A DNA stretch of 23,728 bases from a virus, in the IMG/VR virus record IMGVR_UViG_3300010297_003417, positions 1-23,728 of that record, one strand, 5' to 3'. The notes under the pieces are model-generated. The model did no database searches, was not told the origin of the DNA, and was given only the letters and a program-made list of their open reading frames with translations. Positions within the stretch are counted from its first letter, which is position 1; the number at the start of each line of letters is the position of its first letter. Position numbers and translations under genes: made by a program. Positions 4,090 through 23,727 of this stretch are shown here, one piece after another.

Positions 4090-4370
4090 TGGGACAATAT
4101 GCTGATAAAGTTGAACAAAGAAGAATAGAAATAGAAGCGGAGGAATGGGCAAAGGGTATTAAAAGTATCCATGCTCATTCTATAAGTAGTATGTGGTATG
4201 ATAATAGACCTCAGGATACTGATGGTAAAGGTGTTCTTGATATAGAATATAATAACGGGAAGGTTGTTAGAACATTAGAAAACGGTCAAAAAATTACTAT
4301 GCATAAAGGTCTCGATAAAAAAGAGATTTTAAGGGAGTATGTAAGAAGTGGCAGTTTCCATCAAATGTAA
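4089..4370 (+). CDS. Hypothetical protein
   Basis: A 93-residue soluble protein starting at ATG 4089 in the TAATG junction with the phosphatase gene. The N-terminal third is a charged predicted helix (VEQRRIEIEAEEWAKG), followed by a likely beta-rich part (LDIEYNNGKVVRTLENGQK). No known domain is evident. It overlaps the GTG start of the sulfotransferase gene by 23 bases, so the two are probably translationally coupled. Confidence 0.75.
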   Translation: MGQYADKVEQRRIEIEAEEWAKGIKSIHAHSISSMWYDNRPQDTDGKGVLDIEYNNGKVVRTLENGQKITMHKGLDKKEILREYVRSGSFHQM

Positions 4371-5100
4371 CAAATTTAAAAATAGATTTTGGTTTAGTGC
4401 ATGCCCTAAAACCGGCACTCAATCAATTGAAGCAATAATAAAAGAAAATTTTGAACACAGTCATTCATTTACTGATGAGTTTCATGAAAAAGTAGCTAAA
4501 ATAATAAATCTTCCACAATTTTATAAAAGAGATGCCTTGTTTGGTACTATTAGAAATCCATGGGAAAGATTAGTTAGTAATTTTAATTATCAAAAAAAAT
4601 CAGTTGAGACAAAAATTGAGTACTTAGCAAAACCTGAAGAGTATGAAAAAGATTTTCCACGTAAACAATGGCATTATAAAAATGATATCTGGGTAAATAG
4701 TTTATATCTTGCTGCTGATCAAATATATAACACATTTGATAATTATATAAAATGGTGTAATAGATTTTCTGGGATGCATGTTTACGAAAAAGGTTATTTT
4801 AGAGATAATGTTATTAAACTTATTAATGATTTTGATACACCTGTAGCGTTTGGAATTAATACTCAAACGGAATGGTATGCAGGTAGAGATATTCATTTGC
4901 TATATTTACTTAAAATAGAAGAACCAGAACCTATTATTGATTTTTTTAGAGATGTTTTTGATACTAAAATAGAAGAGCTACCTTTTGTAAATGTTACTGG
5001 TAACGGAAAAGAATATAGAGATTATTATACACCTAAATTGAGAAAAACGGTAGATATTTTAGAACGACCTATAATATTATCTGGTAACTATAAATACTAA
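4348..5100 (+). CDS. Sulfotransferase-like protein
   Basis: The 250-residue product starts at GTG 4348 with GGGAG at 4333-4337. Near the N-terminus, FSACPKTGTQSIE (17-28) is the P-loop-like 5'-phosphosulfate binding motif, and GTIRNPWERLVSNF (66-79) is the 3'-phosphate binding motif with Arg69 and Ser77. This pair defines PAPS-dependent sulfotransferases. Such enzymes move sulfate from PAPS to a hydroxyl or amine of a glycan or small molecule. The protein lies in a run of modification enzymes (oxygenases, SGNH-like proteins, carbamoyltransferase), suggesting a shared target such as a glycan or modified surface. The acceptor cannot be read from sequence. Confidence 0.8.
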   Translation: MAVSIKCNKFKNRFWFSACPKTGTQSIEAIIKENFEHSHSFTDEFHEKVAKIINLPQFYKRDALFGTIRNPWERLVSNFNYQKKSVETKIEYLAKPEEYEKDFPRKQWHYKNDIWVNSLYLAADQIYNTFDNYIKWCNRFSGMHVYEKGYFRDNVIKLINDFDTPVAFGINTQTEWYAGRDIHLLYLLKIEEPEPIIDFFRDVFDTKIEELPFVNVTGNGKEYRDYYTPKLRKTVDILERPIILSGNYKY

Positions 5101-5912: not shown

Positions 5913-6668
5913 ATGATTTATACTAATGGTTGTAGTTATACATATGGTATTGGATGTGCACAGCATGATTCTGCAGAAGATTGTAAGAAGTATTGCTGGC
6001 CAACTAAATTAAGTGAATTATTAAATGATTCAGTAATAAACGAATCTATACCAGGATCAAGTAATTTAAGAATAGCTAGGGATACAATAACAGCATTAGC
6101 TAAAGATGAATTTAAAATTGCTATTGTTATGTGGTCAGATGTTTGTAGAACAGAATTATTTAGACCAGGTGAAGGTGAATTTAGACAAATTAGCATGGCA
6201 CAAATTACTCCACAAAATGTAAGTAATATTAAATCTTTCTACCATAAGGAAGCTTTTGAAAGTTATTATGGTTTTATTAGTTCAGATGAACGAGCTTTAC
6301 TTGAATCGCTCACTTTAATGCTTGGGGTTAATGCAATGGCCAAAGCTAGAAATATACCCTTAATTAATTTACATTTTAAAAAGAACTTTAATCGATATTA
6401 TAGACATGTTCTTAAGAAAGCTGAAAAAATGAAAGATATAACACATAAAACACTAATAGGTGATGTAAATAAATTAAAAGATGCTATTTTAGAAACTAAT
6501 AATCATTTTTTTGGTTTTGATTCAGAATACGGTTCATTTGAATGGTTTGTTAAAGAAAATGATTTACCATTTTCTAATTTTTCTTTAGGTCATCCTGGTA
6601 GAGAAGCACATGAAGAGATGGCAAAATGGATTCACAATTATATTATAGAAAATGACTTGGTTAGTTAA
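5913..6668 (+). CDS. SGNH/GDSL hydrolase-like protein, copy 1
   Basis: The 251-residue protein has SGNH-fold landmarks: block I TNGCSYTYG with Ser8 as the putative nucleophile, block II PGSSN (47-51) with Gly and Asn for the oxyanion hole, a buried strand IAIVMWSD (69-76), and C-terminal GHPGREAH (226-233) containing the catalytic-type His227. The Asp normally three residues before that His is replaced by Ser224, so the triad may be a Ser-His dyad or the protein may not hydrolyse esters. A typical role would be adding or removing O-acetyl groups on a glycan. A paralogue of the same length follows, overlapping by 17 bases. Confidence 0.72.
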   Translation: MIYTNGCSYTYGIGCAQHDSAEDCKKYCWPTKLSELLNDSVINESIPGSSNLRIARDTITALAKDEFKIAIVMWSDVCRTELFRPGEGEFRQISMAQITPQNVSNIKSFYHKEAFESYYGFISSDERALLESLTLMLGVNAMAKARNIPLINLHFKKNFNRYYRHVLKKAEKMKDITHKTLIGDVNKLKDAILETNNHFFGFDSEYGSFEWFVKENDLPFSNFSLGHPGREAHEEMAKWIHNYIIENDLVS

Positions 6669-7407
6669 TGGTTGCAGTTTCACTTATGGTGATGAATTAG
6701 AAAATCATGAAGAAGAAAGGTGGTCTAATCATTTAAGTAAATTATTAAATGAAAAAATAATTAACATTGCTTTACCAGGCTCATCTAATAAACAAATATG
6801 GAGACGTACTATGGAGCGTCTCCATAATGAAGAATTTACTAATTGTTTTATATTATGGTCTGCCTTTGAACGTATTGAAACAATTGAATTTAATGCGGGT
6901 GTGACTATAAAATCAGATGATGGTGTTGCATTATCTAACATTCATCCAGATTATTATGTTCAATGGTCCCCTGCTAGATTAGATACAACCCCATGGAGAT
7001 ATAAAAAAGACGAGTTTGAAAATTTTTATTCCAGAATTTATTCGTCTGAAACTGGTATAATGGATACCGCATTTTATATGTATGATTTGTATAATATTTG
7101 TAAATTAAAAAATATTAATTACTATCAAGGCTTTTTTCATCAAGGTAATAAATTTGTAATAGAAAGAACTTTTAGTGAAAATAGATTAATAAATTATGGT
7201 ACAAGATTAGAAAGGGTAATAAATTCTTGGAATAATTTAATTAAAGAATTTACAGGTAATCAAAGAATTGGTTTTGATGAAAGGTCTTTATCATTTAATG
7301 AATTTACTGAAATAAATAATTACAATAAAATGCCAGAAGGACACCCAGGTCCAGAAGCCCATGAGGGGTATGCTAAATATTTATATGATAATTTTATAGT
7401 GAGGTAA
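6652..7407 (+). CDS. SGNH/GDSL hydrolase-like protein, copy 2
   Basis: Also 251 residues and a tandem paralogue of the preceding gene: NGCSFTYG with Ser9, LPGSSN (41-46), FILWSAFE, and C-terminal GHPGPEAHEGYAKYL with His231 and His237. As in copy 1 the usual Asp before the catalytic His is missing (Pro/Glu/Gly precede His231). Identity between the copies appears confined to the motif blocks, so the duplication is old. The ATG at 6652 lies within the end of copy 1. A 10-bp perfect inverted repeat sits inside this gene (6797-6826). The next gene, the carbamoyltransferase, starts two bases after the stop. Confidence 0.72.
   Translation: MTWLVNGCSFTYGDELENHEEERWSNHLSKLLNEKIINIALPGSSNKQIWRRTMERLHNEEFTNCFILWSAFERIETIEFNAGVTIKSDDGVALSNIHPDYYVQWSPARLDTTPWRYKKDEFENFYSRIYSSETGIMDTAFYMYDLYNICKLKNINYYQGFFHQGNKFVIERTFSENRLINYGTRLERVINSWNNLIKEFTGNQRIGFDERSLSFNEFTEINNYNKMPEGHPGPEAHEGYAKYLYDNFIVR
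6797..6826 (+). repeat. Perfect 10-bp inverted repeat inside a coding region
   Basis: TATGGAGACG at 6797-6806 is the exact reverse complement of CGTCTCCATA at 6817-6826, with a 10-base loop. It lies within the second SGNH-like gene and encodes part of a helix. It has no T-run, so it is not a terminator; it could be a structured site in mRNA or a chance palindrome. Confidence 0.7.
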
Positions 7408-9169: not shown

Positions 9170-9453
9170 TGGAAAGTGAAGTTTCACAAATTTCTCAGCT
9201 TATTTCAGATTATGGCTTTCCTATTATCATGTCAGTTGGTATGGGATACTTTATATACTTTATCTGGAATTTTATTGGTGAAAAAATAGATCCTCAGATT
9301 GAGAAAATGCATTTTGCATTAATCAAAGTGATAGATCAAACACGCATGTTAGACCAGGATATTATTAGATTACAACAAAAAGTAAATGTTGTTCTCGAAT
9401 ATAGAGCAGTAGAGGAAATAAAAAAGAAAGCCGATGAAATTAAAAAGAAATAA
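9169..9453 (+). CDS. Small membrane-anchored coiled-coil protein, second of a pair
   Basis: A 94-residue protein with one membrane helix (about 14-37, DYGFPIIMSVGMGYFIYFIW) and a long charged helix ending in Lys-rich repeats (EEIKKKADEIKKK). It shares topology and spaced residues with the preceding protein. The 3' end overlaps csgF by 20 bases, so it is probably translated together with the curli genes. The two proteins could form a membrane complex; the sequence does not say whether they serve lysis or secretion. Confidence 0.72.
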   Translation: MESEVSQISQLISDYGFPIIMSVGMGYFIYFIWNFIGEKIDPQIEKMHFALIKVIDQTRMLDQDIIRLQQKVNVVLEYRAVEEIKKKADEIKKK

Positions 9454-9913
9454 TTTATTTTTAGTACTATTTACATTACCACTTTATTCTACAGAAATAG
9501 TCCATAAATTTAAAAACCCTTCATTTAGTGGTATAGGCACTGGTGCACATTATCTTACTATTGAAAACCAAGAACATTCAAGAAAGAAAGCAATAGAAGA
9601 AGCCCTTGAAGCTGCAAAAAAAGCAGCTGAAAGAGAAGCAGATAACACCACGTTAGCTAAGTTTATTCGTAACTTAGAATCAAGAATATACGCACAATTT
9701 GCTAAACAATTAGTAGAATCAATGTTTAGTAATGATAACCCTGCATCATTTGGATCATTTGCCTTAGAAGGTAATATTGTAACATGGGAAGTTGTTACTG
9801 CTGAAGATGGTTCAGAATGGATTAAATTGACAATAACAGCAACAGATGGTACTGAGACGGTTATAGAAATACCAGTTGGAACTGGAAACTATGCTCAGGA
9901 TCCTGATGGTTAG
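9434..9913 (+). CDS. csgF: CsgF-like curli assembly factor
   Basis: The 159-residue protein has a signal peptide (MKLKRNNLFLVLFTLPLYS) followed at once by the CsgF mature signature: EIVHKFKNPSFSGIG, matching the Phe-x-Asn-Pro-x-Phe-x-Gly segment of E. coli CsgF, which inserts in the CsgG pore and forms its second constriction. A helical stretch with Ala/Glu-rich repeats follows (about 50-100), then a beta-rich end (residues 111-148) equivalent to the CsgF C-terminal domain that presents the nucleator at the surface. In bacteria CsgF couples CsgG to curlin nucleation outside the cell. It overlaps csgG by 8 bases. The length is slightly above the usual ~140. Confidence 0.88.
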   Translation: MKLKRNNLFLVLFTLPLYSTEIVHKFKNPSFSGIGTGAHYLTIENQEHSRKKAIEEALEAAKKAAEREADNTTLAKFIRNLESRIYAQFAKQLVESMFSNDNPASFGSFALEGNIVTWEVVTAEDGSEWIKLTITATDGTETVIEIPVGTGNYAQDPDG

Positions 9914-10808
9914 AATCTTATTAACATTATTAATTTTACAAGGTTGTGCATCTGTACCAAAATGGTCTGATGGTCCAGGTAACTGTGCTTATGAAACTGG
10001 TAAATATAGTGAGGGGTTTAGTAAAGATGTTGTTACAGGTATAGCTAAGCCAATAACTAGAAAATATATTTGTGTTGAGCAACCATCTGTAGTTAAATTA
10101 CCATCTTATATTCAATTATTAGAATTACCACCAGCAAAGGAACAGCCAGTGGTTGCAGTATATCAATTTTTAGATAAAACCGGTCAAAGAAAAGCTAGAG
10201 ATGGAATTGCTGATTTTTCTACTGCTGTAACTCAAGGTGGTGTTGAAATGGTTGTTGATGCACTAAAGACTGCAGGTGAAGGTACATGGTTTAGAGTTGC
10301 AGAAAGAAATGGTATAGACAATTTAGTTAGAGAAAGACAAATTATAAGAAGTGCTAGGCAAGATTTTGCTAAGCAAAACGATCAAGAAAAATTTCAAGAT
10401 TTGAATCCACTCTTATTTGCTGGTATGATTATAGAGGGTGGTATTATTGGTTATGACACTAATATCAGGTCAGGTGGTCTTGGGGCCAGAACACTTGGTA
10501 TTGGAATCAGTAAACAATATAGGCAAGATGTTGTTACTGTAAGTATGAGAGCTGTTTCAGTTCTAACAGGTGAAGTTTTACTAAACGTCCAAACTCGTAA
10601 GACTATTCTGAGCTACGGTTCAGGGGGAGACGTCTTCCGTTTTATTGAGCAAGGTACTCAGCTTATTGAGTTAGAGGACGGTGTTGGTAATAATGAATCA
10701 GTGACATTTGCAGTACGAACAGCCATTGAGGCTGCAGTATTGGAATTAATACACCAAGGCCATTCACGTGGTTATTGGACAATCGAGGGATATAACGAAA
10801 ATGAATAA
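9906..10808 (+). CDS. csgG: CsgG-like curli secretion pore lipoprotein
   Basis: From ATG 9906 the protein is 300 residues with a short lipoprotein signal (MVRILLTLLILQGC; lipobox L-Q-G-C, lipidated Cys14). The mature part follows CsgG closely: AKEQPVVAVYQFLDKTGQRK, FSTAVTQGGVEMVVDALKTA, FRVAERNGIDNLVRERQIIR, a membrane-spanning hairpin region around GIGISKQYRQDVVTVSMRAV, and TGEVLLNVQTRKTILSYG. CsgG nonamers form the ungated outer-membrane channel for curlin. The frame is open to ATG 9876, but the lipobox distance and the AGGA at 9898-9901 favour 9906. Overlaps with csgF and the curlin gene (8 bases each) imply coupled expression. This places the product in the host outer membrane. Confidence 0.93.
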   Translation: MVRILLTLLILQGCASVPKWSDGPGNCAYETGKYSEGFSKDVVTGIAKPITRKYICVEQPSVVKLPSYIQLLELPPAKEQPVVAVYQFLDKTGQRKARDGIADFSTAVTQGGVEMVVDALKTAGEGTWFRVAERNGIDNLVRERQIIRSARQDFAKQNDQEKFQDLNPLLFAGMIIEGGIIGYDTNIRSGGLGARTLGIGISKQYRQDVVTVSMRAVSVLTGEVLLNVQTRKTILSYGSGGDVFRFIEQGTQLIELEDGVGNNESVTFAVRTAIEAAVLELIHQGHSRGYWTIEGYNENE

Positions 10809-11535
10809 ACTTTTAAGTATAGCATTGCTATTGTCGACATCTTTTATTTTCGCACAAGCCACTGATGATAACGAGATTAACATAACTCAAACTGGTGACA
10901 CTTTATCTTTATACATAGACCAAATTGGTTTTGGAAACAAGATAGGTGGTGATAATGGATCTTCTGGATCTTTATCAGCTATGTCAATTACCGGTACAAG
11001 CTTATCGTTTGATCTTGATTTTACAGGAGATCAAAACTTATTGTTTGGTCCTGTTGTAGCAGATAGTTCTACTTATCTGCTTAATTTAACAGGGGATAGT
11101 AATAGTATTGATTGGAATATAGGATATATCGGAAGTGCTGATAGTTCAAATATTAACTTTGATATTACTGGTGACAGTAATACTTTTGATTTAGATCAAG
11201 GTTATATTTACAGTGCTGAAAGACTTGATGCCGATTTAATACTAATTGGTAGCTCGAATATTTTTGATATTGATTGGGAGTCTGATGATATTATATGGAA
11301 CTTTGATATAACTGGTGGTTCAAATAACATTAACACACTTCAAAGCGATGGTGCTAATGAAATTACATTTGACCTAACTGGAGATTCTGCAGATATAGAT
11401 ATCACACAGATTACAGGTACATGTTCAGGACAAAATGCTGGATGTGCTACACCAAATGGTATAATTACTATGGATGTAACTTCAGATAATGCAACAATTC
11501 AAATTGTACAAAAAGATTCAACTACCGATTCTTAA
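10801..11535 (+). CDS. Curlin-like repeat protein 1 (putative CsgA/CsgB-type amyloid subunit)
   Basis: The 244-residue product starts with a signal peptide (MNKLLSIALLLSTSFIFAQA) and then consists of about eight 20-30-residue repeats, each built around (I/F)xFDxTGDSNxxDxx. The first, NITQTGDTLSLYIDQIGFGN, has the classic curlin Q-x-G-x-x-N pattern; later units replace the Gln ladder with Asp. The composition is rich in Ser, Asn, Asp, Gly, Ile and nearly free of Lys/Arg, as expected for a secreted beta-solenoid fibre protein. Two Cys (208, 215) flank a loop in the seventh unit. Its position directly after csgF-csgG makes it the likely substrate of the pore. ATG 10801 is chosen because it starts the signal peptide; the frame is open to 10768. 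Confidence 0.85.
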   Translation: MNKLLSIALLLSTSFIFAQATDDNEINITQTGDTLSLYIDQIGFGNKIGGDNGSSGSLSAMSITGTSLSFDLDFTGDQNLLFGPVVADSSTYLLNLTGDSNSIDWNIGYIGSADSSNINFDITGDSNTFDLDQGYIYSAERLDADLILIGSSNIFDIDWESDDIIWNFDITGGSNNINTLQSDGANEITFDLTGDSADIDITQITGTCSGQNAGCATPNGIITMDVTSDNATIQIVQKDSTTDS

Positions 11536-12640
11536 TCTATTATTAATCAGTGGGGTCAGCTTTGCTGACTCCATTGGTGATATCATTGAACAGACGGGTT
11601 CAACTCAATTAATTAGAGACAAAGAAGAAATATCAGTTACAGAAACATATTTACCAGGTATTGAATTATACGATACAGCTGAAACCTCAAATGGTAGAAT
11701 GCTTATTGAATTTAAAGATAAGGCAGAACTGGCATTAACTGAGCATACTAGCGTATTGATTGATGAAATAATTTATGATCCAAACCCAAATTTATCTAAA
11801 ATGTCTTTAAAAATGGTACAAGGTACAGCCCGATTTGCTTCAGGTTCTCTTGGATTAGTCAATAAAGCTAATATTGATATACAGACCCCAACAGCCACAA
11901 TAGGTATTAGAGGAACAGATTTTACCACAACTATTGATGAAATAGGAAGAAGTTTGATTATGCTTTTACCAGACGATAAGGGTGACCCTTCAGGTGAAAT
12001 AATTATAACTAATGCAGGTGGATCAATAACATTAAATGAAGCTTATCAAGCCACTTTAGTTCAATCATTTGATAAAATTCCAGAACAATCTTATGTTGTT
12101 GATAATATTAATAATAGTATGATAGATAATATGTTTATTGTTAATCCCCCTCCAGAAGTAAAACGACAAATGGAAGATGAAGCAGCTGATAGTGCTTATG
12201 CAGATCAAGGGGTATTAGATATTGATTTTTTGGAATATAATGAATTAGAAAAAGATATAGATGATTATTTAGAAGAAAATGAAGATAAAAATAGTAGAAT
12301 AGATTATGATGCATTAAGCGGTGATTTTTTACCAAATTTATTAGACGTCGTGGAAGAATTATTGAGAACTACTGCTGCATTAGGTGATGCACAAGGTACA
12401 GATAGTTTAGCTGGATTTTCTTTAAAAGGTGCAGAATTTGGTTTTAATAAAGATTCACAATATAATATTTTTCAAGAAGATGGAAGATTAATTGTTTTTA
12501 GAGACATAAATGGTAGAATTACTATATCATTTCAACCAGGTGCTAATTTTAGTTTAACAACAGAAGTAGAAGGATATGCTGGTACTATTACAGGTAACAA
12601 TGGTGAAGATATAATAGTGGTGATCAAGCAAACAAACTAG
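11489..12640 (+). CDS. Secreted FecR-domain protein
   Basis: The 383-residue protein begins with a signal peptide (positive N-terminus FKLYKK, hydrophobic core LPILNLLLISGVSFA, cleavage near residue 26). Residues about 45-148 form a FecR domain: LPGIELYDTAETSNGRMLIE, LALTEHTSVLID, KMVQGTARFASGSLG and IQTPTATIGIRGTDF. The rest is acidic (about 205-300) with a beta-rich C-terminus. There is no membrane anchor or anti-sigma domain. In bacteria, stand-alone periplasmic FecR proteins are often encoded beside CHASE2-cyclase receptors, and a CHASE2 cyclase lies three genes downstream here. The ATG at 11489 lies inside the curlin gene (47-base overlap) and is needed for the signal peptide. Confidence 0.85.
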   Translation: MQQFKLYKKIQLPILNLLLISGVSFADSIGDIIEQTGSTQLIRDKEEISVTETYLPGIELYDTAETSNGRMLIEFKDKAELALTEHTSVLIDEIIYDPNPNLSKMSLKMVQGTARFASGSLGLVNKANIDIQTPTATIGIRGTDFTTTIDEIGRSLIMLLPDDKGDPSGEIIITNAGGSITLNEAYQATLVQSFDKIPEQSYVVDNINNSMIDNMFIVNPPPEVKRQMEDEAADSAYADQGVLDIDFLEYNELEKDIDDYLEENEDKNSRIDYDALSGDFLPNLLDVVEELLRTTAALGDAQGTDSLAGFSLKGAEFGFNKDSQYNIFQEDGRLIVFRDINGRITISFQPGANFSLTTEVEGYAGTITGNNGEDIIVVIKQTN

Positions 12641-12651
12641 CTATATATTAG

Positions 12652-12861
12652 ATGCCTATTAAATTCAGACAATCAGAAAAGGTTTTTAAGAAAGACGGTC
12701 CTAAAATAGCACCGGTTAAACATTATTACATAAAACAAACACCTACCACCGAATTAATTGATTATATCAATAAAGGTCAAAAAAATAAAGTGAAACAAAA
12801 ATGTAGAAATGAATTAACAAGAAGGGGTGTAAGACTCGTCTGGACAGCTAATGGCAGTTAA
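12652..12861 (+). CDS. Conserved small basic phage protein
   Basis: The 69-residue protein is basic with a shape I recall from many marine T4-type phages: MPIKFRQSEKVF at the start, KHYYIKQTPTTELIDYI in the middle and KCRNELTRRGVRLVW at the end. It has no signal or membrane segment, so unlike its neighbours it stays in the cytoplasm. Function unknown; nucleic-acid binding is plausible from charge. It separates the FecR gene from the second curlin gene and overlaps the next gene by 11 bases. Confidence 0.75.
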   Translation: MPIKFRQSEKVFKKDGPKIAPVKHYYIKQTPTTELIDYINKGQKNKVKQKCRNELTRRGVRLVWTANGS

Positions 12862-13006
12862 AAGCAAATCTTTTCAAAAATTTCATGTACCTACCGCTGG
12901 AATACGTGGTAAAAAAACTTCTATTGGCCTAAATAACTTAGCAACGTCTACAATGAATAAAAATAAAAGACGCTCACTAAAAAAATATCGTGGTCAAGGA
13001 AAATAA
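12851..13006 (+). CDS. Very small basic protein (51 residues)
   Basis: A 51-residue frame runs from ATG 12851 to TAA 13006, overlapping the preceding gene by 11 bases and the GTG start of the second curlin-like gene by 17. It has many Lys/Arg residues (VKSKSFQKF, GIRGKKT, NKNKRRSLKKYRGQGK) and no hydrophobic core, suggesting nucleic-acid binding. The chained overlaps and the lack of any other frame in this gap support it as a real gene. No family recognised. Confidence 0.6.
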   Translation: MAVKSKSFQKFHVPTAGIRGKKTSIGLNNLATSTMNKNKRRSLKKYRGQGK

Positions 13007-13709
13007 TTCAGATAAAGGTTTATTAGCAATAGGGTGGATAATTTTATTTACCTGGTGTGCTCTTGCGTTTGGTGACGATAATAAAATTACTATTGACCAA
13101 ACTGGTGGTGATAACTTCAATCTCACAATCAATCAATTTGGTTCAAACAATGTCATCAAAATGTATGATCCATATTCTTATGTCAATGGTGCAAATATGT
13201 CATTACATTTTTATCAAAACAATGATGGTTCAAATCAAAACACAATAGACCTTTGGCACTTAGATGGAAATAATAATAGTATTCGTTGGGGTCAGGGTGG
13301 TAAACTAGATGATGCATCTGATACTACATTCTATTTTGATGGAACTGAAAGTGGTGGTCATTACGCTAACTTTGATATACACGGAAGTTATAATAATATT
13401 GCAGGTTGGCAAGCAAACTCAGGTAATGGTGCTCACACATATAATCAACTAATCTTTAGTAGTTATAATGATGTATATGTAGAACAACGAGGTGATGGTG
13501 ATAAAACATTAAATCTTACTATTAATAATGATGGTAATGACGTAGAAGTATTTCAAAAGAATACTGGACATACAGCAACAATTAACTTATCAGGTTCAGA
13601 CCCAACCATACTCTATCTATTACAACAAGGATATACATCACAAACTTATTCACTTTCACAAAACTGTGTAACTGTAGGTGGCTGCAGTGTATCAGTCACA
13701 CAACAATGA
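12990..13709 (+). CDS. Curlin-like repeat protein 2
   Basis: The 239-residue product starts at GTG 12990 and carries a signal peptide (hydrophobic GLLAIGWIILFTWCALAFG, residues 10-28). The mature protein opens with KITIDQTGGDNFNLTINQFG, a curlin-type repeat with the Gln-x-Gly pattern, then has Asn/Gly/Ser/Thr-rich strands of 20-25 residues (NTIDLWHLDGNNNSIRWGQG, NFDIHGSYNNIAGW, DVYVEQRGDG, DVEVFQKNTG), less regular than in protein 1. A Cys pair (226, 232) lies near the end, as in protein 1. It is probably a second fibre subunit or nucleator, comparable with the CsgA/CsgB division. Its stop overlaps the cyclase start as ATGA. Confidence 0.8.
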   Translation: MVKENNSDKGLLAIGWIILFTWCALAFGDDNKITIDQTGGDNFNLTINQFGSNNVIKMYDPYSYVNGANMSLHFYQNNDGSNQNTIDLWHLDGNNNSIRWGQGGKLDDASDTTFYFDGTESGGHYANFDIHGSYNNIAGWQANSGNGAHTYNQLIFSSYNDVYVEQRGDGDKTLNLTINNDGNDVEVFQKNTGHTATINLSGSDPTILYLLQQGYTSQTYSLSQNCVTVGGCSVSVTQQ

Positions 13710-15532
13710 AATATTTAACATCAGTGTGGACAGCTATTGCAGTTCTTTTCTTATTTGTATTAATTAGAGTATTTGATCCTTTTTTAATTGAATCAACTAG
13801 ATTAAATTATTTTGATTATTTGCAAAGATCTCATGAAGTAATAGAATCTCATCAAATTGTATTAGTTGATATTGATGAAAAATCTATACAAAAACATGGC
13901 CAATGGCCTTGGCCTAGAAAAGAATTAGCGTATGAATTAAATAATATACAACCTGGCAATTTAATAGCTATGTCTATTATATTTTCAGAAAAAGATAGAT
14001 TTAATGGTGATTTTGTTTTATCAGAAACATTTCAATATTACCCAACTGTATTAGCAACAGCACCCACTAATCAAATACAAACAGAAAGAAAATTACATGT
14101 TGGTACAGCTACATTAGGTAGATATCCAGCTCAAGATTTTACCATTGATTATCCTGGTATATTATTACCAATAGAAACATTATCAAATGTATCAGCTGGT
14201 AATGGAGCTATCAGTTCAGTACCTGATATTGATGGTGTGGTTAGAAAGTTACCTATTGTTGTATCTGCTAATAAAAAGGTTTATCCATCATTTGCATTAG
14301 AAGTAATTAGAACTGCCGTAGGAGATATTTCATATCAAATAAAAACTAATGAATTAGGTATAGAATGGGTAAGAATACCTGCATATAAAGAGATTGCTAC
14401 ATTAAATAATGGAACTGTATATAATACATACTGGAACAAGTTTAAACGTGTGAGCATTAGTGAGCTTAGAGGAGAGAAACTATCTCCAGGTAGTATCCTA
14501 ATAGTAGGACCTACATTTGAAGGAACTAATATTATACCAACTCCTGTTGGAGCAATGTACCCTCATGATGTGCAAGCTAATTTAATTAAAACTATAATTG
14601 ACGGTACAGTACTTAAACGTCCTGATTATTTTTCTTTTGTTGAGATAGTAGCTCAAGTATTTCTTGGTCTTCTTTGTCTCGTTCTATTGTATCAAGCTGC
14701 CGTTTGGATAAGTGGAGTCGCCAGCGTTGTCTTGATTGTCTCTGCTGCTTGGCTTTCTGTTTGGCTTTTTTCATCAAAATCCTTGTTATTTGATCCTACA
14801 TGGATTATAATATCAACTATATTAGTATTTAGTGTTGGAGCATTCAACCAGTTCTATAACAATTTTAAACTAAGACAACAGATTAAAAAACAATTTGGTA
14901 CATATGTATCACCAGATCTTGTTAAACAATTACAAGATGATCCATCATTGCTTAAATTGGGGGGTGAAAGAAAAACCATGTCTTTTATGTTTATGGACAT
15001 ATGTGGATTCACACCTATAAGTGAACATTATAAAAATAATGATGATCCAGAAGGGTTAGTAGAACTGGTTAATAAGTTTTTAGATGTTCAGACAAAGATA
15101 ATACTAAATAATAATGGTACGGTTGATAAGTATATGGGAGATTGTATCATGGCATTTTGGAATGCCCCATTACCATGTGAAAATCATGCAGATATGGCCG
15201 TAAAAACTTCTCTCGAAATAATAGAAGCTACAAAAAAATTAAATGAAGAACTTAAACCTCTTAATCTCCCTCCTATCAATGTTGGTATTGGTGTCAATAC
15301 CGGTGAATGCATCGTCGGTAACATGGGTTCAGAATCTAGATTTGACTATTCCGTCATTGGAGATGCCGTCAACCTTGCCGCTAGACTCGAAAGCCAAACA
15401 CGAAATTATGATGGGGTGGACTTGTTGTTATCACAATTCACTGCTGGAGCGTGTACAGAAAGAGCATTCAGAAAAGTTGATACAGTCCAGGTTAAAGGAA
15501 AATCAGAAAAGGTTGACATCTTTACAGTTTAG
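13706..15532 (+). CDS. CHASE2-domain class III adenylate/guanylate cyclase
   Basis: This 608-residue receptor-type cyclase has an N-terminal membrane helix (4-22), an extracytoplasmic CHASE2 domain (about 30-305; IVLVDIDEKSIQKHGQWPWP, DIDGVVRKLP, GSILIVGPT), three membrane helices (about 311-385) and a class III cyclase domain (about 420-605). Catalytic residues are complete: metal Asp431 (FMDICGFT) and Asp479 with substrate Lys475 (VDKYMGDCIMAFW), Ser549 at the base-selecting position, and Asn555/Arg559 of VNLAARLE for the transition state. It should make cAMP (or cGMP) in response to a periplasmic signal. The ATGA start overlap couples it to curlin 2. A cyclase of this kind in a phage-like genome is unusual. 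Confidence 0.93.
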   Translation: MKYLTSVWTAIAVLFLFVLIRVFDPFLIESTRLNYFDYLQRSHEVIESHQIVLVDIDEKSIQKHGQWPWPRKELAYELNNIQPGNLIAMSIIFSEKDRFNGDFVLSETFQYYPTVLATAPTNQIQTERKLHVGTATLGRYPAQDFTIDYPGILLPIETLSNVSAGNGAISSVPDIDGVVRKLPIVVSANKKVYPSFALEVIRTAVGDISYQIKTNELGIEWVRIPAYKEIATLNNGTVYNTYWNKFKRVSISELRGEKLSPGSILIVGPTFEGTNIIPTPVGAMYPHDVQANLIKTIIDGTVLKRPDYFSFVEIVAQVFLGLLCLVLLYQAAVWISGVASVVLIVSAAWLSVWLFSSKSLLFDPTWIIISTILVFSVGAFNQFYNNFKLRQQIKKQFGTYVSPDLVKQLQDDPSLLKLGGERKTMSFMFMDICGFTPISEHYKNNDDPEGLVELVNKFLDVQTKIILNNNGTVDKYMGDCIMAFWNAPLPCENHADMAVKTSLEIIEATKKLNEELKPLNLPPINVGIGVNTGECIVGNMGSESRFDYSVIGDAVNLAARLESQTRNYDGVDLLLSQFTAGACTERAFRKVDTVQVKGKSEKVDIFTV

Positions 15533-18858: not shown

Positions 18859-18883
18859 GGGTGGTGAAAACCACCCTTCTTTA
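18859..18883 (+). terminator. Rho-independent terminator with GAAA tetraloop
   Basis: A 7-bp stem (GGGTGGT at 18859-18865 with ACCACCC at 18870-18876) closes on a GAAA tetraloop and is followed by TTCTTTA. It lies 13 bases after the gp32-like gene and stops rightward transcription before the convergent tail genes. The reverse strand lacks a T-run, so it acts mainly in one direction. Confidence 0.85.
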
Positions 18884-21109
18884 CTTTGAAAATCTGATTA
18901 CTGTTGGAGTAGTACCTCTTGATACTCGGTACTGTTTGGTTTCAATATTGTTGCTAAGTGCTGTAGTATTACCACCTGTATTTACAACATTATTTACATT
19001 CTGAGATACTACATTTGCAATAGATTCTGATAATGCCTGTTCATCTAAAACTTTACCAGATGATCCCCCTTGGAATATATTTACTGCTTTAGATATATCT
19101 GCTAATTTTTTATGATCTAAGTTTTGTATTTGTTTTAATTTATCAATTAATTTTTGAAGATTCTCATCTTTAAATTCTCTACCTTCTAAATTCTTTAATA
19201 AATCATCTGTTGAGCCTACAAAATCTTTAAATACTATAAGTTCTGGACCACCAAATTTTGATAGATCTGTCATTGCGGTGCCTAGTTCACTTAAAGGTTC
19301 GATAGCTGATTCAAAGTCACTTGTTGTTATCCAGCCTGTTAATTGACCCCAAATATTTTTTAACCCTTTAAATGCACCTTCTAAAAATGTATCATTTTCA
19401 TCAATTCTATCAAGCCCAGTTAAATTATCAATTAATTCACGTACACCATCACCCATATAACCCATTGACTTAACTGTATCTTCATTAAAGTTTAATTTGG
19501 AAATATCATCCATACCAGCCGCAAATTCTTCTAAATCATCTGATATCATACTTAATTGAAATGAGGATAAAAAGCTACTAAAACCACCTAATAAATCAGC
19601 AAACCCCGTACCTATTAGTTTACCTTTATCAGCAAACATAACTGCATCAACACTGTTTAATTTATTAATTGTTTCACTTAACCCACCAATCTCATCTTCT
19701 ATAGATGATAAAACAAGCCCTTCTTTTAAGCTATTAAACCCTCCTAATAAACTACCAAATCCTGTACCAAGTTGTTCACCTGTAGTTATAAATTTAGCTG
19801 AATCAGTTTTATTTAAACTATCCACACCAGATGCTATAACACCAAGATTATCGTCTATAAGTTTAGCTGTTAAAGTATCAAATATGGATCCCATACCGGT
19901 AAGCAACTTATTAATACCCTTACCAGCAGTTTCCATATCAGTTTCAAAACTGCTATCAATTTCTGCGTTATTTAATGCAGTAATACCTGTTGCTAATACA
20001 CCTAAATTATCATCTATAAATTGTAATGTGAATGAACCAAACAGATTTTTAAATCCTGATTGTTCACTCATAAATGCTGATAATCCTCTACCAGCAGCTC
20101 CCATATCATCTTCAAAGTTGCTGTTAAGTTTTACAGTGTTAAATGCTTCAATACCTCTTGCTAAAGGTACTAAACTTTCATCAACCAACTTAACTGTTAT
20201 ACCAGCTAAAATATTTGTATCAACATTATTTAAAAATGCATTAATTCCATCAGCTGCTCTTGATAAATTTTCTTCATCAAATTCTGTATCATTTAATGCT
20301 TTCATACCAGCTGCTAAATCAGTAAATTGTGTTTTAGCTAATAACATTAAATTGATAGTACCACCAAAAGAGGTTGCACCAGTTAGTTGACCTAATGCAT
20401 AACCTAGTTCTTCAAATTTTTCTTTATCAATATCTAATTTATTAAGTTGATCTATACCCGTTGATGTTTCTTGTAGCCCTTTGCCGAATACTTCTACTGC
20501 TTTTGCTCCAATATAAAGAGCACCAGTTATGGTTGCTAAACCTAAACCTACTGCACCTAAACCTAAACCAACACCACCTAATGTACCAGCTACAGCACCA
20601 CCTGCAGCACCACCTGCAGCCCCTCCTGCAGCTCTACTGGCCCCTCTTCCACCTACTAATCCAGCAAGTGTTGACATAAAACCACCCGTAGCTTTATCTG
20701 CTTTTTCTGTTTCGTCTGTGTAAGTTTTTAATCCTTTAGTGTCTGGGCTGATTACTATATCACCATCTTTCTTTTTACCTTTAGGTTGAATAGATTTTGC
20801 ACCTGAATCTTCCTTCAGCTCAGTAAAATAACTACTTACTGGTTCAAAAAGTGATATTAATTTATCAAATTGTCCAATTTGTATATTTAACTTATCATTT
20901 GCACCATCAAATGATAATGCTAATTCACCCATCTCTTCTCTTAAAGTAGAGGCGAGATCATTATTACCTTCTATGATAGCTTTTTGTAATGAATTAAATG
21001 TTTGAACTTGTTTACCTATGATACCAAAAACTTGAGACGCCGTTTTATCTCCATTCCCTCTTGGTAATGGTTTTCTCGGCCCGTTTGGTTTTTTAGTATC
21101 TTCAGCCAT
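18881..21109 (-). CDS. Large repeat protein, putative tape-measure/tail structural protein
   Basis: The 742-residue protein has a charged helical N-terminus (1-130), a Gly/Ala-rich hydrophobic segment (about 143-205; AAGGAAGGAAGGAVAG then GLGLGAVGLGLATITGALYI) and then about seven repeats of roughly 53 residues (205-545) sharing IDDNLGVxAxGxxxLN. The end is Asn/Ser-rich. A long helical protein with a membrane-seeking segment, encoded just behind the gp26-like gene with its frameshift signal, fits a tape measure: at the roughly 1.5 angstrom per residue usual for tape measures, 742 residues would span about 110 nm, close to a T4-type tail. I cannot match it to T4 gp29 by sequence, so another tail role is possible. 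The start is in a TAATG junction. Confidence 0.6.
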   Translation of the reverse strand: MAEDTKKPNGPRKPLPRGNGDKTASQVFGIIGKQVQTFNSLQKAIIEGNNDLASTLREEMGELALSFDGANDKLNIQIGQFDKLISLFEPVSSYFTELKEDSGAKSIQPKGKKKDGDIVISPDTKGLKTYTDETEKADKATGGFMSTLAGLVGGRGASRAAGGAAGGAAGGAVAGTLGGVGLGLGAVGLGLATITGALYIGAKAVEVFGKGLQETSTGIDQLNKLDIDKEKFEELGYALGQLTGATSFGGTINLMLLAKTQFTDLAAGMKALNDTEFDEENLSRAADGINAFLNNVDTNILAGITVKLVDESLVPLARGIEAFNTVKLNSNFEDDMGAAGRGLSAFMSEQSGFKNLFGSFTLQFIDDNLGVLATGITALNNAEIDSSFETDMETAGKGINKLLTGMGSIFDTLTAKLIDDNLGVIASGVDSLNKTDSAKFITTGEQLGTGFGSLLGGFNSLKEGLVLSSIEDEIGGLSETINKLNSVDAVMFADKGKLIGTGFADLLGGFSSFLSSFQLSMISDDLEEFAAGMDDISKLNFNEDTVKSMGYMGDGVRELIDNLTGLDRIDENDTFLEGAFKGLKNIWGQLTGWITTSDFESAIEPLSELGTAMTDLSKFGGPELIVFKDFVGSTDDLLKNLEGREFKDENLQKLIDKLKQIQNLDHKKLADISKAVNIFQGGSSGKVLDEQALSESIANVVSQNVNNVVNTGGNTTALSNNIETKQYRVSRGTTPTVIRFSK

Positions 21110-21480
21110 TAATTTTTACCAAATGCTCTTCCAGCTTCACTAATACCAAATGCACCTAATGTAACTACCACAAATGATGTATAAATTGTATCAGAGATAA
21201 CTAAGTCTTGACCCATAAATGCAGTGATTAAATCACATATACCGAAAATTGTCATTAATGCAAATGATATAAATCCAATAATTGCTTTTTCGTTTACATC
21301 ATTATCATCTAAAAAAATGTCCATAAATTTTCTTTCGGGTGGTGCAAGTCTTTTTTTAGCTTCTGCAGCCTCAAGTTGCATTTCTCTAATGGTATCTTCA
21401 GCTTTATCAAGCTTATCGATTAACCCCATATATTTGTCGAGATCTATCTCAACTTCGTTTCTACTATTATCTTTAGCCAT
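21109..21480 (-). CDS. Two-helix membrane protein
   Basis: The 123-residue protein has a charged coiled-coil-like N-terminus (8-50; LIDKLDKAEDTIREMQLEAA) and two membrane helices (about 64-87 IIGFISFALMTIFGICDLIT and 93-114 LVISDTIYTSFVVVTLGAFG) ending in GRAFGKN. The layout could suit a holin-like or tail-tip membrane protein, but no family is evident. It lies between the gp26-like gene and the large repeat protein. Its ATG falls inside the last codons of the predicted frameshift frame, and its stop overlaps the next start. Confidence 0.72.
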   Translation of the reverse strand: MAKDNSRNEVEIDLDKYMGLIDKLDKAEDTIREMQLEAAEAKKRLAPPERKFMDIFLDDNDVNEKAIIGFISFALMTIFGICDLITAFMGQDLVISDTIYTSFVVVTLGAFGISEAGRAFGKN

Positions 21481-21658
21481 TATGTTTTTTCCTCAGTTCT
21501 TCTTGTTGCTTTAACCAATCAATTAATAACTCTATGTAAATATCCCTCTCAAAAGGGTACATAGCCTCTAACTCTGTTAAAGAGTATTTATGATGCTGAA
21601 CAAGATTAAACTGGGTTTGATAATAGTTACCTAAGTCGTTATGACTTAGGCATACATA
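21473..21658 (-). CDS. Minus-one frame extension of the gp26-like protein (61 residues)
   Basis: Reading the strand in the frame one base back from the gp26-like frame gives 61 codons, from TAT re-reading base 21658 to TAA at 21475-21473. It includes NYYQTQFNLVQHHKYSLTEL, then MYPFERDIYIELLIDWLKQQ. It is a well-formed soluble sequence with no ATG, GTG or TTG before its internal Met, so it is best explained as the second half of a gp26 fusion made by frameshifting; the fusion would be 304 residues (21473-22386). It fills an otherwise empty 165-base gap. It resembles small proteins annotated after gp26 in marine T4-type phages, as far as I recall. Confidence 0.75.
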   Translation of the reverse strand, partial: YVCLSHNDLGNYYQTQFNLVQHHKYSLTELEAMYPFERDIYIELLIDWLKQQEELRKKHNG

Positions 21659-21664
21659 AAAAAA
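21630..21664 (-). promoter_or_regulatory. Programmed -1 ribosomal frameshift signal
   Basis: Read on the minus strand, the gp26-like frame contains GA T-TTT-TTT, a perfect X_XXY_YYZ slippery heptamer (21664-21658). After a 7-base spacer comes a perfect 8-bp hairpin: CCTAAGTC (21650-21643), loop ATAAC, GACTTAGG (21637-21630). The zero-frame stop TAA (21648-21646) lies in the 5' arm of the stem. Slipping back one base enters the open frame described above. Heptamer, spacing and stem all fit known -1 signals. Confidence 0.8.
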
Positions 21665-22386
21665 TCGTTAAGCCCACTTAAAGTTTTTGTTTTTTCTTCT
21701 CCAGCAGCATTAACATAATGTAAGTCATAAGATAATTGCGGTATTTTTGCAATATATTCTTGTATCTGTTTAAAGTTCTGGGTGGTTAAAGAGTCAAAAA
21801 ATTCTCTTCTTTCATCCGGACTATAATCTTTTAACAAATAGACTTCATCACCATCATCACTATAAACAGAATCAACTGCATTCGATACTAATTCAAAAGC
21901 AATGTTTGCAGGATTCTCTTTGAATATTTCATCAGAAAAATCATGATTTTCTTTATATTCAGGAAACTTTAATTTTAACCAGTACTTATCTGATATTTGT
22001 ATTTTATCATTTGGTACTTTAGATACATCTAATTCTACTTCATCTAAATCCAATTCTACTTCTACATAACCTGTTTCACCTTCTACCACTTCTTTTGTTT
22101 CATCAACAATATTAAGTTTTACAATATTATTAACAGACAATGCTCGTAATTTTAAAAATATATAATCCACTTCAAAAGCAGGTAATGTTTCTAAGTTTGT
22201 ACCACATACTATACAGTTTCTTAAAACTGTTTTTACTGCATCAACTATTGCAGTCATTTTTTTCTCGTTTTGTGCAAAAAGTAAAAGCTTTTCTTCTTTT
22301 ACCGTAAAAGGTCTTATTTTGATTTTCTTTTTACTGTAAGGTAAAAACACCTCTGTTGTGGGTGAATCAAGTTTTGGTAAGCTCAT
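21646..22386 (-). CDS. 26: gp26-like baseplate hub assembly protein / tail chaperone
   Basis: The 246-residue protein resembles the T4 gp26 family (T4_baseplate, PF12322): LPKLDSPTTEVFLPYSKKKI at the start, IRPFTVKEEKLLLFAQ, then an acidic middle and a C-terminal half with YSPDERREFFDSLTTQNFKQ. T4 gp26 is needed to build the baseplate hub and has no clear enzymatic role. The gene has AGGAG (22392-22396 on this strand) before ATG. Its 3' end carries a slippery T7 followed by a hairpin, so a fraction of ribosomes should make a 304-residue frameshifted form, as with G/GT tail chaperones. It is followed by a membrane protein and a possible tape measure. Confidence 0.8.
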   Translation of the reverse strand: MSLPKLDSPTTEVFLPYSKKKIKIRPFTVKEEKLLLFAQNEKKMTAIVDAVKTVLRNCIVCGTNLETLPAFEVDYIFLKLRALSVNNIVKLNIVDETKEVVEGETGYVEVELDLDEVELDVSKVPNDKIQISDKYWLKLKFPEYKENHDFSDEIFKENPANIAFELVSNAVDSVYSDDGDEVYLLKDYSPDERREFFDSLTTQNFKQIQEYIAKIPQLSYDLHYVNAAGEEKTKTLSGLNDFFMYA

Positions 22387-22394
22387 TATATCTC

Positions 22395-23162
22395 CTAATC
22401 AAATAAATTTAATAATGTTTTACCATTATTAATCACATTCAAAGCGTCTTGAACGCCTCTTGGTTTTTTAATAGATTTCACTATTTCAGCTGCTCCTTTC
22501 ATTTTAGCAATAAACTGGAATAAATTTAATCCACGTTTTCTTTCACCACCCTCTGCAATATCAGATGTAGATGGCATCATTGTTCTATATGATAACTGGG
22601 TTTGTATTAAAGCAATTTCATTATTTTGTTGCCAGCCATAATCGATTGAACCAATATTTAAAATTGCACAGTCATAAAATTTGTATGTTAAAATAGTTCC
22701 ACCTTTAGGTTCAAAAACTTCTAATGTTACATCCATAGCATAATCATCAAAATATCCAGTTTCACCAAAATAAGAAGCACCACCATCAGGCATTGGTACT
22801 GATCCTATTTCACCCGCATTAAGAGCATATTGAGCATGTCGTTGTGCCCATTTTGTTAAAAATTCAATTACCTGATTAGTATTATCTAGAAAAAATTCTA
22901 AAGATAAAGCCTGAGGTATATAACCTGTTGTTCTTCTTTCATTAGGACCAAACCCTTGTCTTTTAAATTCTGTTTGTGAAAAAGCAAACCCTGGCATTGT
23001 AGCTCTAGAACAAAGTATTCTTGCTGCATCTAAATTGCTGGTTGTTTTAAATCCATTAGACCCTCTTGGTGGTGAAAAAGATACCATAAACAAATTAGGT
23101 ACTTGAAGTCCTTGAAATTTATCTACTTGTGATCTAAATTCGTTTACGTTAAATTTTGCCAT
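22395..23162 (-). CDS. Tail-tube-fold baseplate protein (gp48/gp54-like)
   Basis: The 255-residue protein has the pattern of tail-tube-type folds: LQVPNLFMVSFSPPRGSNGF, a strand-rich body with ILCSRATMPGFAFSQTEFKR, YIPQALSLEFFLDNTNQVIE, MDVTLEVFEP and the end IALIQTQLSYRTMMP, then a short charged tail. In T4 the gp19 tube fold is shared by gp48 and gp54, which start the tube on the baseplate; this protein could be either, or the tube cap. It overlaps the upstream gene by 14 bases and precedes gp26-like by 8 bases, in a tail gene cluster. I cannot name the exact T4 partner. Confidence 0.6.
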   Translation of the reverse strand: MAKFNVNEFRSQVDKFQGLQVPNLFMVSFSPPRGSNGFKTTSNLDAARILCSRATMPGFAFSQTEFKRQGFGPNERRTTGYIPQALSLEFFLDNTNQVIEFLTKWAQRHAQYALNAGEIGSVPMPDGGASYFGETGYFDDYAMDVTLEVFEPKGGTILTYKFYDCAILNIGSIDYGWQQNNEIALIQTQLSYRTMMPSTSDIAEGGERKRGLNLFQFIAKMKGAAEIVKSIKKPRGVQDALNVINNGKTLLNLFD

Positions 23163-23727
23163 TCCATTTTAACCTTGAATCTTCCCAAACTTGATTTACG
23201 TTTGGTACTTTTCTGAAGTCTTGTAAAGGTAATGATATTACATACTGCCATTCTTCTGGATGTATTTTAATCATTCTTCCTCTTATATGATTATTTAGGT
23301 ACTTTTTAATACATGCTTTATAATAAAGCTTACTTGTACCAGTTGATCTAACTTTATCATAATCAATATCTAGATAAGTTTTATCAGTTAATACATTTTC
23401 ATCTCTAAATTCTAAAAGCTGTTTCATAAAAAGCCCCCGTTCTCTATAGGGTAAATAATGAAAATTTAACCCTAAACAGTAAGTTGGAGTGACGTCTATA
23501 ATTGCTGAAATAGGAAATCTATCATAATATGGCAGTGAATTTTTATTTTTATTTTTTGGATCATATTTAAATAAAAAAATATCACCAGGTTTAAATGGTA
23601 ATTCTTTATAATTATCTATTAATGATTTTCTTCTAAATAAGTTATCAACGATGGGTAAATCAGCATCTTCTGTTTCTTTTGCTTTTTGTTGAAAGTATAA
23701 ACGAGATTTATTTGAACCGTCTTGAAT
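23149..23727 (-). CDS. Partial structural/DNA-end protein, 5' part outside the window
   Basis: The frame ending at 23149 is open without stops to the right edge of the window, giving at least 192 residues; the Met at 23427 is internal and is not preceded by a ribosome binding site, so the gene starts beyond base 23728. The visible part includes KPGDIFLFKYDPKNK, a Tyr-rich loop YYDRFPISAIIDVTPTYCLG, GLNFHYLPYRERGLFMK and a basic C-terminal half. Marine T4-type genomes carry a family of this kind that I recall being labelled gp2, DNA end protector; I cannot confirm that and a tail role is equally possible. It overlaps the tube-fold gene by 14 bases. Confidence 0.6.
   Translation of the reverse strand: MQDGSNKSRLYFQQKAKETEDADLPIVDNLFRRKSLIDNYKELPFKPGDIFLFKYDPKNKNKNSLPYYDRFPISAIIDVTPTYCLGLNFHYLPYRERGLFMKQLLEFRDENVLTDKTYLDIDYDKVRSTGTSKLYYKACIKKYLNNHIRGRMIKIHPEEWQYVISLPLQDFRKVPNVNQVWEDSRLKWNGKI

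Follow-up and report, generated by a model that had tools for sequence, protein, structure and literature searches.

The 23,728-nucleotide viral sequence analyzed here (IMG/VR record IMGVR_UViG_3300010297_003417, positions 1 to 23,728; the whole stretch is called the window below) very probably carries the tail assembly chaperone pair of a marine T4-type phage, a short protein (TAC-N) and a long one (TAC-NC) produced by -1 frameshifting at the end of a gp26-like gene. We put the probability of this reading at about 0.93. It is supported because relatives conserve the slip site together with the -1 frame and its extension, because the extension belongs to the gp51 family, and because the N-terminal domain is predicted to have a chaperone-like fold. 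A programmed -1 frameshift yielding a short and a long tail chaperone had been proposed earlier from the nucleotides of the window alone (the original prediction), and the same evidence speaks in favor of that proposal.

Probable frameshift site in the window

The zero-frame 3' end of the gp26-like gene reads GAT TTT TTT ATG TAT GCC TAA, on the minus strand (Table 1). The heptamer T_TTT_TTT stands in the phase X_XXY_YYZ and is separated by 7 nt (ATGTATG) from a perfect 8-bp hairpin (CCTAAGTC-ataac-GACTTAGG, 21650-21630), whose stem includes the TAA stop. Sixty-one codons are open in the -1 frame before its stop at 21473; in the upstream direction the frame is closed by a stop four codons before Tyr1, the first residue of the slip product. 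No ATG, GTG or TTG is found in this frame ahead of Met33, which lies past half of the conserved extension domain. Residues 1-243 of the gp26-like protein plus the 61 residues of the extension make a TAC-NC of 304 aa. The layout described in the original prediction (in-phase heptamer, 7-base spacer, 8-bp hairpin with the zero-frame stop, and 61 open codons in the -1 frame with no usable start) was confirmed in every element. We also scanned both strands of the window for frames of at least 100 codons with an in-phase XXXYYYZ (Y = A or T) followed by a stop no more than 11 codons on, and with a -1 extension of at least 50 codons. Exactly one site was returned, the gp26-like junction, against 0.005 sites per window expected by Markov shuffles.

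Table 1. Features of the putative chaperone locus and its neighbours, in window coordinates.
Feature	Position	Strand	Evidence
TAC-N gene (gp26-like, 246 aa), putative short tail assembly chaperone	21646..22386	-	PF12322 and phrog_150 matches, predicted fold
Slippery heptamer T_TTT_TTT, zero-frame phase (X_XXY_YYZ)	21658..21664	-	Sequence reading; TTTTTTN equivalents in relatives
Zero-frame stop TAA, within hairpin 5' arm	21646..21648	-	Sequence reading
Putative stimulatory hairpin, 8 perfect bp, 5-nt loop, 7-nt spacer from heptamer	21630..21650	-	MFE -14.1 kcal/mol, z -3.4
-1 extension (putative TAC-C, gp51 family), 61 codons and stop	21473..21658	-	phrog_634 match
Gene next after the extension, 123 aa, two predicted membrane segments	21109..21480	-	Start overlaps extension end by 8 nt
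Candidate tape measure protein, 742 aa	18881..21109	-	Position downstream of chaperone only
Tail tube protein, upstream neighbour	22395..23162	-	phrog_45, E 1.2e-26
DNA end protector (gp2-like), runs off window	23149..23727	-	phrog_429, E 1.2e-46

Protein families and predicted fold

The gp26-like protein matched the Pfam family T4_baseplate (PF12322; E 2.6e-46, 158.5 bits with a cut-off of 24.5) and the PHROG family annotated as "baseplate hub" (phrog_150; E 2e-52). The extension matched phrog_634, "baseplate hub assembly catalyst", that is, the gp51 family (E 5e-24, covering positions 58-115 of the 121 in the profile). A tblastn search with the extension found similar sequence in 583 phage records, mostly of cyanophages, together with phages of Vibrio, Rhizobium, Sinorhizobium, Campylobacter and Pseudomonas.

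The AlphaFold2 model of the 246-aa protein, built with 64 relatives, had a mean pLDDT of 90.6. Foldseek alone gave no match of this model to the PDB at E<0.001, and a PDB sequence search with the gp26-like protein returned nothing relevant; structure matches in the viral library were gp26-type baseplate hub proteins. In a second look by structural alignment against the PDB, model residues ~1-90 matched 3fgx (RBSTP2171; Z 8.1), 3klu (YqbN; Z 7.4) and 2ob9 (the HK97 tail assembly chaperone gp13; Z 7.3) over 84-85 residues, and the next PDB entry scored Z 2.8. RBSTP2171 and YqbN are tail-chaperone homologues. Z values of 7-8 are moderate, with the three chaperones well clear of the next entry, and the modeling thus supports a tail-assembly-chaperone fold for the N-terminal domain. 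The three structures share this predicted fold with the T4-type protein at only 8-12% identity, and the T4-type protein is some 150 residues longer (246 aa for TAC-N, 107 residues for the HK97 chaperone chain).

Conservation of the slip site among relatives

We collected relatives by two scans of viral contigs with protein patterns, of which the heptamer was not part, and from phage isolates. Both domains were found at 174 loci, and in 172 of them (before removal of duplicates) they stand in the -1 relation. The two others, the in-frame fusion of phage CP220 (L009) and a locus whose best matches are not an adjacent pair (L079), were excluded from the 168 distinct loci, which comprise phage isolates and T4-type environmental contigs.

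An in-phase TTTTTTN is present in all 168 distinct loci with the -1 pair (103 TTTTTTC, 57 TTTTTTT, 7 TTTTTTA and 1 TTTTTTG), and each has a stop codon after the heptamer. At control xFF sites, taken from the remaining long reading frames of these loci, the TTTTTTN form was used in 30 of 487 cases (6.2%). The slip run, on whose conservation the original prediction staked itself, is therefore invariant in this set. We examined the junctions of the isolates S-WAM1, S-RSM4, S-H9-1, S-PM2, P-SSM2, P-HM2, S-CRM01, phiM7, RHph_Y68, nt-1 and pf16: they read TTTTTT[C/T/G] and then a zero-frame stop, with homology to the extension beginning at the slip point, in the -1 frame relative to gp26. The gp26/gp51 frameshift architecture is thus invariant across a wide T4-type set outside the T4-proper group.

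The extension is 56-68 aa long in nearly all loci. Its differences at codon positions 1, 2 and 3 number 14528, 7390 and 28744 (1252 pairs, which are non-independent), and this bias indicates that the frame evolves as protein. Together with the gp51-family match, it agrees with the earlier suggestion that the frame codes for a plausible protein segment.

This reading competes with that of two separate genes, gp26 and gp51, each translated from its own start, gp51 by coupled re-initiation after the gp26 stop. In its favor, gp51 is annotated as a CDS of its own in many records, an ATG overlaps the gp26 stop in S-CRM01 and nt-1, and in 72 of the 168 loci an ATG occurs in frame at some point from where the frame opens up to residue 15. 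However, 66 of the 168 have no ATG, GTG or TTG up to residue 15 (96 have no ATG), and a start at Met33 in the window would omit more than half of the conserved domain. The annotated starts are also inconsistent: they truncate the domain in P-HM2 and S-RSM4, and gp51 is not annotated in S-WAM1 or S-H9-1. The heptamer is invariant where the starts are not, and the gp26-like domain is fused to the extension in T4 gp51 and in the long proteins of CP220 and Vibrio phage Va1. The original prediction had singled out a separate gene with its own start as the finding that would speak against it; such a start is absent in the window and inconsistent in the relatives, and we consider separate translation improbable. 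In the isolate genomes inspected, gp51 is annotated as a separate, truncated or missing gene, and the 583 phage records with the extension are candidates for re-annotation.

In S-CRM01 (L011:2001) and Vibrio phage nt-1 (L008:2004), a TAATG stop-start overlap closely follows an intact TTTTTTC, and in these two phages the extension might be reached by frameshifting as well as by coupled initiation.

Frameshifting could also be mimicked in the mRNA if RNA polymerase added or dropped a U on the T7 run and so joined the frames. The run is homopolymeric in the window and in 57 of the 168 loci. However, 103 loci have T6C, which is shorter than the runs usually required for polymerase slippage; the site keeps a strict X_XXY_YYZ phase and is followed by RNA structure, as used by ribosomal slippage; and the many other T7/A7 runs of the window lack the gene-junction layout of this site. 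Transcriptional slippage is accordingly very unlikely. A pseudogene or sequencing error, in which a single indel has split one continuous gp26-gp51 gene, is the least credible explanation: sequencing errs easily in homopolymers, and both parts do share one frame in some lineages, but the same -1 relation recurs at the same site in 172 of 174 loci, a stop follows the heptamer in each distinct one, and the in-frame lineages also retain a separate short gene. Separate starts, transcriptional slippage and sequencing error were all judged unlikely.

RNA structure downstream of the heptamer

With flanking U-A and G-U pairs, the stem in the window grows to 10 contiguous bp at 21628-21652, and only 1 of 200 dinucleotide shuffles was as stable as the native region, from which the z-score in Table 1 derives. 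Among the relatives, mean predicted stability peaks around and just 3' of the heptamer, with a mean structure z of about -1.1. Since the hairpin register is not the same in all loci, column-wise covariation in a single shared register did not work, and chimeras with swapped arms (the 5' half of one locus joined to the 3' half of another) were used in its place. In 134 non-redundant loci, the native RNA just after the heptamer averaged -6.3 kcal/mol and the chimeras -4.5 kcal/mol, with relatedness incompletely removed by this design. Forty-two of these loci (31%) ranked in the best decile of their own chimeras, compared with 10-20% at six control offsets.

Relatives differ in the register and strength of the hairpin, and many have no strong simple one: a simple hairpin below -5 kcal/mol in the scanned geometry occurs in only 63 of 168 loci. 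The downstream hairpin is therefore a common aid and not an invariant part of the site, and that of the window is among the stronger ones. The expectation that slippery run and hairpin would both be conserved thus held for the former, which is universal, and in part for the latter, which is enriched after the heptamer without being universal.

Proposed mechanism

We infer that slippage takes place in the phage, at an efficiency that would leave most ribosomes to halt at the TAA (21646-21648) and release the 246-aa gp26-like TAC-N. A minority would pause at the hairpin starting 7 nt downstream and slip by -1 on U_UUU_UUU, with both Phe-tRNAs re-pairing. Having passed the stop, these ribosomes would extend the chain by 61 gp51-type residues to the 304-aa TAC-NC (243 + 61). 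If lambda gpG/gpGT is a guide, TAC-N may coat the tape measure protein, for which the 742-aa product of the gene at 18881-21109 is a candidate, and TAC-C, carried by the rare long form, may recruit tail tube subunits. Neither TAC-N nor TAC-NC would need to be present in the virion.

T4 and the two-gene lineages

T4 gp26 matches PF12322 over its whole length, as the window protein does, and equates to the short form. T4 gp51 has its PF12322 match in residues 1-201 and a phrog_634 match at the C-terminal end; it therefore corresponds to the fused long product, with gp26-like domain and extension in one frame, encoded as an ordinary gene. T4 thus has two divergently oriented genes and no frameshift, where the window has a single site. 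Assembly of T4 depends on gp51, which is not part of the particle, and both gp26 and gp51 have been listed as hub assembly chaperones (PMC3004832). The "hub assembly catalyst" gp51 would then be explained as the long form of the chaperone.

Short and long genes are also found in Aeromonas phage 44RR2.8t and Enterobacter phage EC-F2. Outside Straboviridae, a T4-like two-gene arrangement was observed in Vibrio phage Va1, where the genes are in tandem (L179:833-2175), and in Campylobacter phage CP220, where they are about 8 kb apart (L009:1437-2171 and L177). In our tree, the long and short genes of each two-gene set group together and the frameshift lineages fall between the sets; the branches are long, and a single clade of two-gene lineages is not rejected (p-AU 0.14). 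This topology suggests two replacements by the two-gene solution. A tentative scenario, to which we would give slightly less than even odds, is that T4-type phages ancestrally used the frameshift and that two genes took its place on at least two independent occasions, once in the Straboviridae of T4, Aeromonas and Enterobacter phages and once in Campylobacter phage CP220 and Vibrio phage Va1. Slip site and gene pair would represent two well-separated strategies, which raises the question of whether selection maintains the TAC-N:TAC-NC ratio.

Relation to known systems

Tail chaperones are well known to be expressed through a conserved -1 frameshift, as in lambda G/GT (Xu et al. 2004), and T4 has been named as the exception to this rule (Atkins et al. 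2016, PMC5009743). The claim in the original prediction that the gp26 frameshift had not been described does not hold up: tail assembly chaperones of T4-like phages were identified by Vladimirov, Gautam and Davidson (Virology 2022;566:9-15), a study known here through papers that cite it. As paraphrased there, TAC-N genes of T4-like phages carry poly-T slip signals (PMC12846349), and some T4-like phages have one short and one fused long gene (PMC10885494). The gp26/gp51 pair described here fits the short TAC-N and long TAC-NC of that study, so far as the citing papers convey it.

Since these chaperones are already published, the present locus is a further example and not a discovery. The frameshift is reportedly conserved in several T4-like groups, according to the abstract of the 2022 study. 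What is new amounts at most, judging the coverage of that study by its citing papers, to the T7 heptamer of this lineage, with its hairpin that contains the stop, and to a possible second replacement by two genes in Campylobacter and Vibrio phages. Literature searches combining gp26, gp51 and cyanophage with frameshift found nothing relevant. The slip heptamer of lambda gpG/gpGT is G_GGA_AAG and differs from that of the window, which is further set apart from lambda by a strong downstream hairpin.

Neighbouring and other genes

The gene order at the window locus is that of Vibrio phage nt-1 and Sinorhizobium phage phiM7. The tail tube gene upstream was assigned by its phrog_45 match, and the 742-aa gene downstream is placed by position alone; its product has a Gly/Ala-rich hydrophobic segment near residue 180, and family profile searches with it gave no informative match. 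In S-RSM4, the large gene downstream of the chaperone (L002:2689-5180) has peptidase/endolysin-type matches and weak tape-measure PHROG matches, in keeping with the occurrence of lytic domains in tape measure proteins.

Elsewhere in the window, on the plus strand, we found a curli-secretion-like set of genes (9434-13709) with CsgF (PF10614, E 2e-12) and CsgG (PF03783, E 4e-51). The set also includes one protein with curlin repeats (E 3e-4), one with a FecR domain (E 1e-8) and another secreted, curlin-like protein that has no Pfam match. Directly after it, a plus-strand gene (13706-15532) encodes a 608-aa protein with CHASE2 and adenylate/guanylate cyclase domains (PF05226, E 5e-35; PF00211, E 3e-19), a membrane sensor cyclase that is unexpected in a phage genome. 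A carbamoyltransferase gene (PF02543/PF16861; 7410-8849, plus strand) adjoins genes for two proteins of ~251 aa (5913-6668 and 6652-7407), and a possible sulfotransferase, a weak match (4348-5100), and oxygenase-like proteins are encoded nearby; the carbamoyltransferase and its neighbours possibly form a modification cluster.
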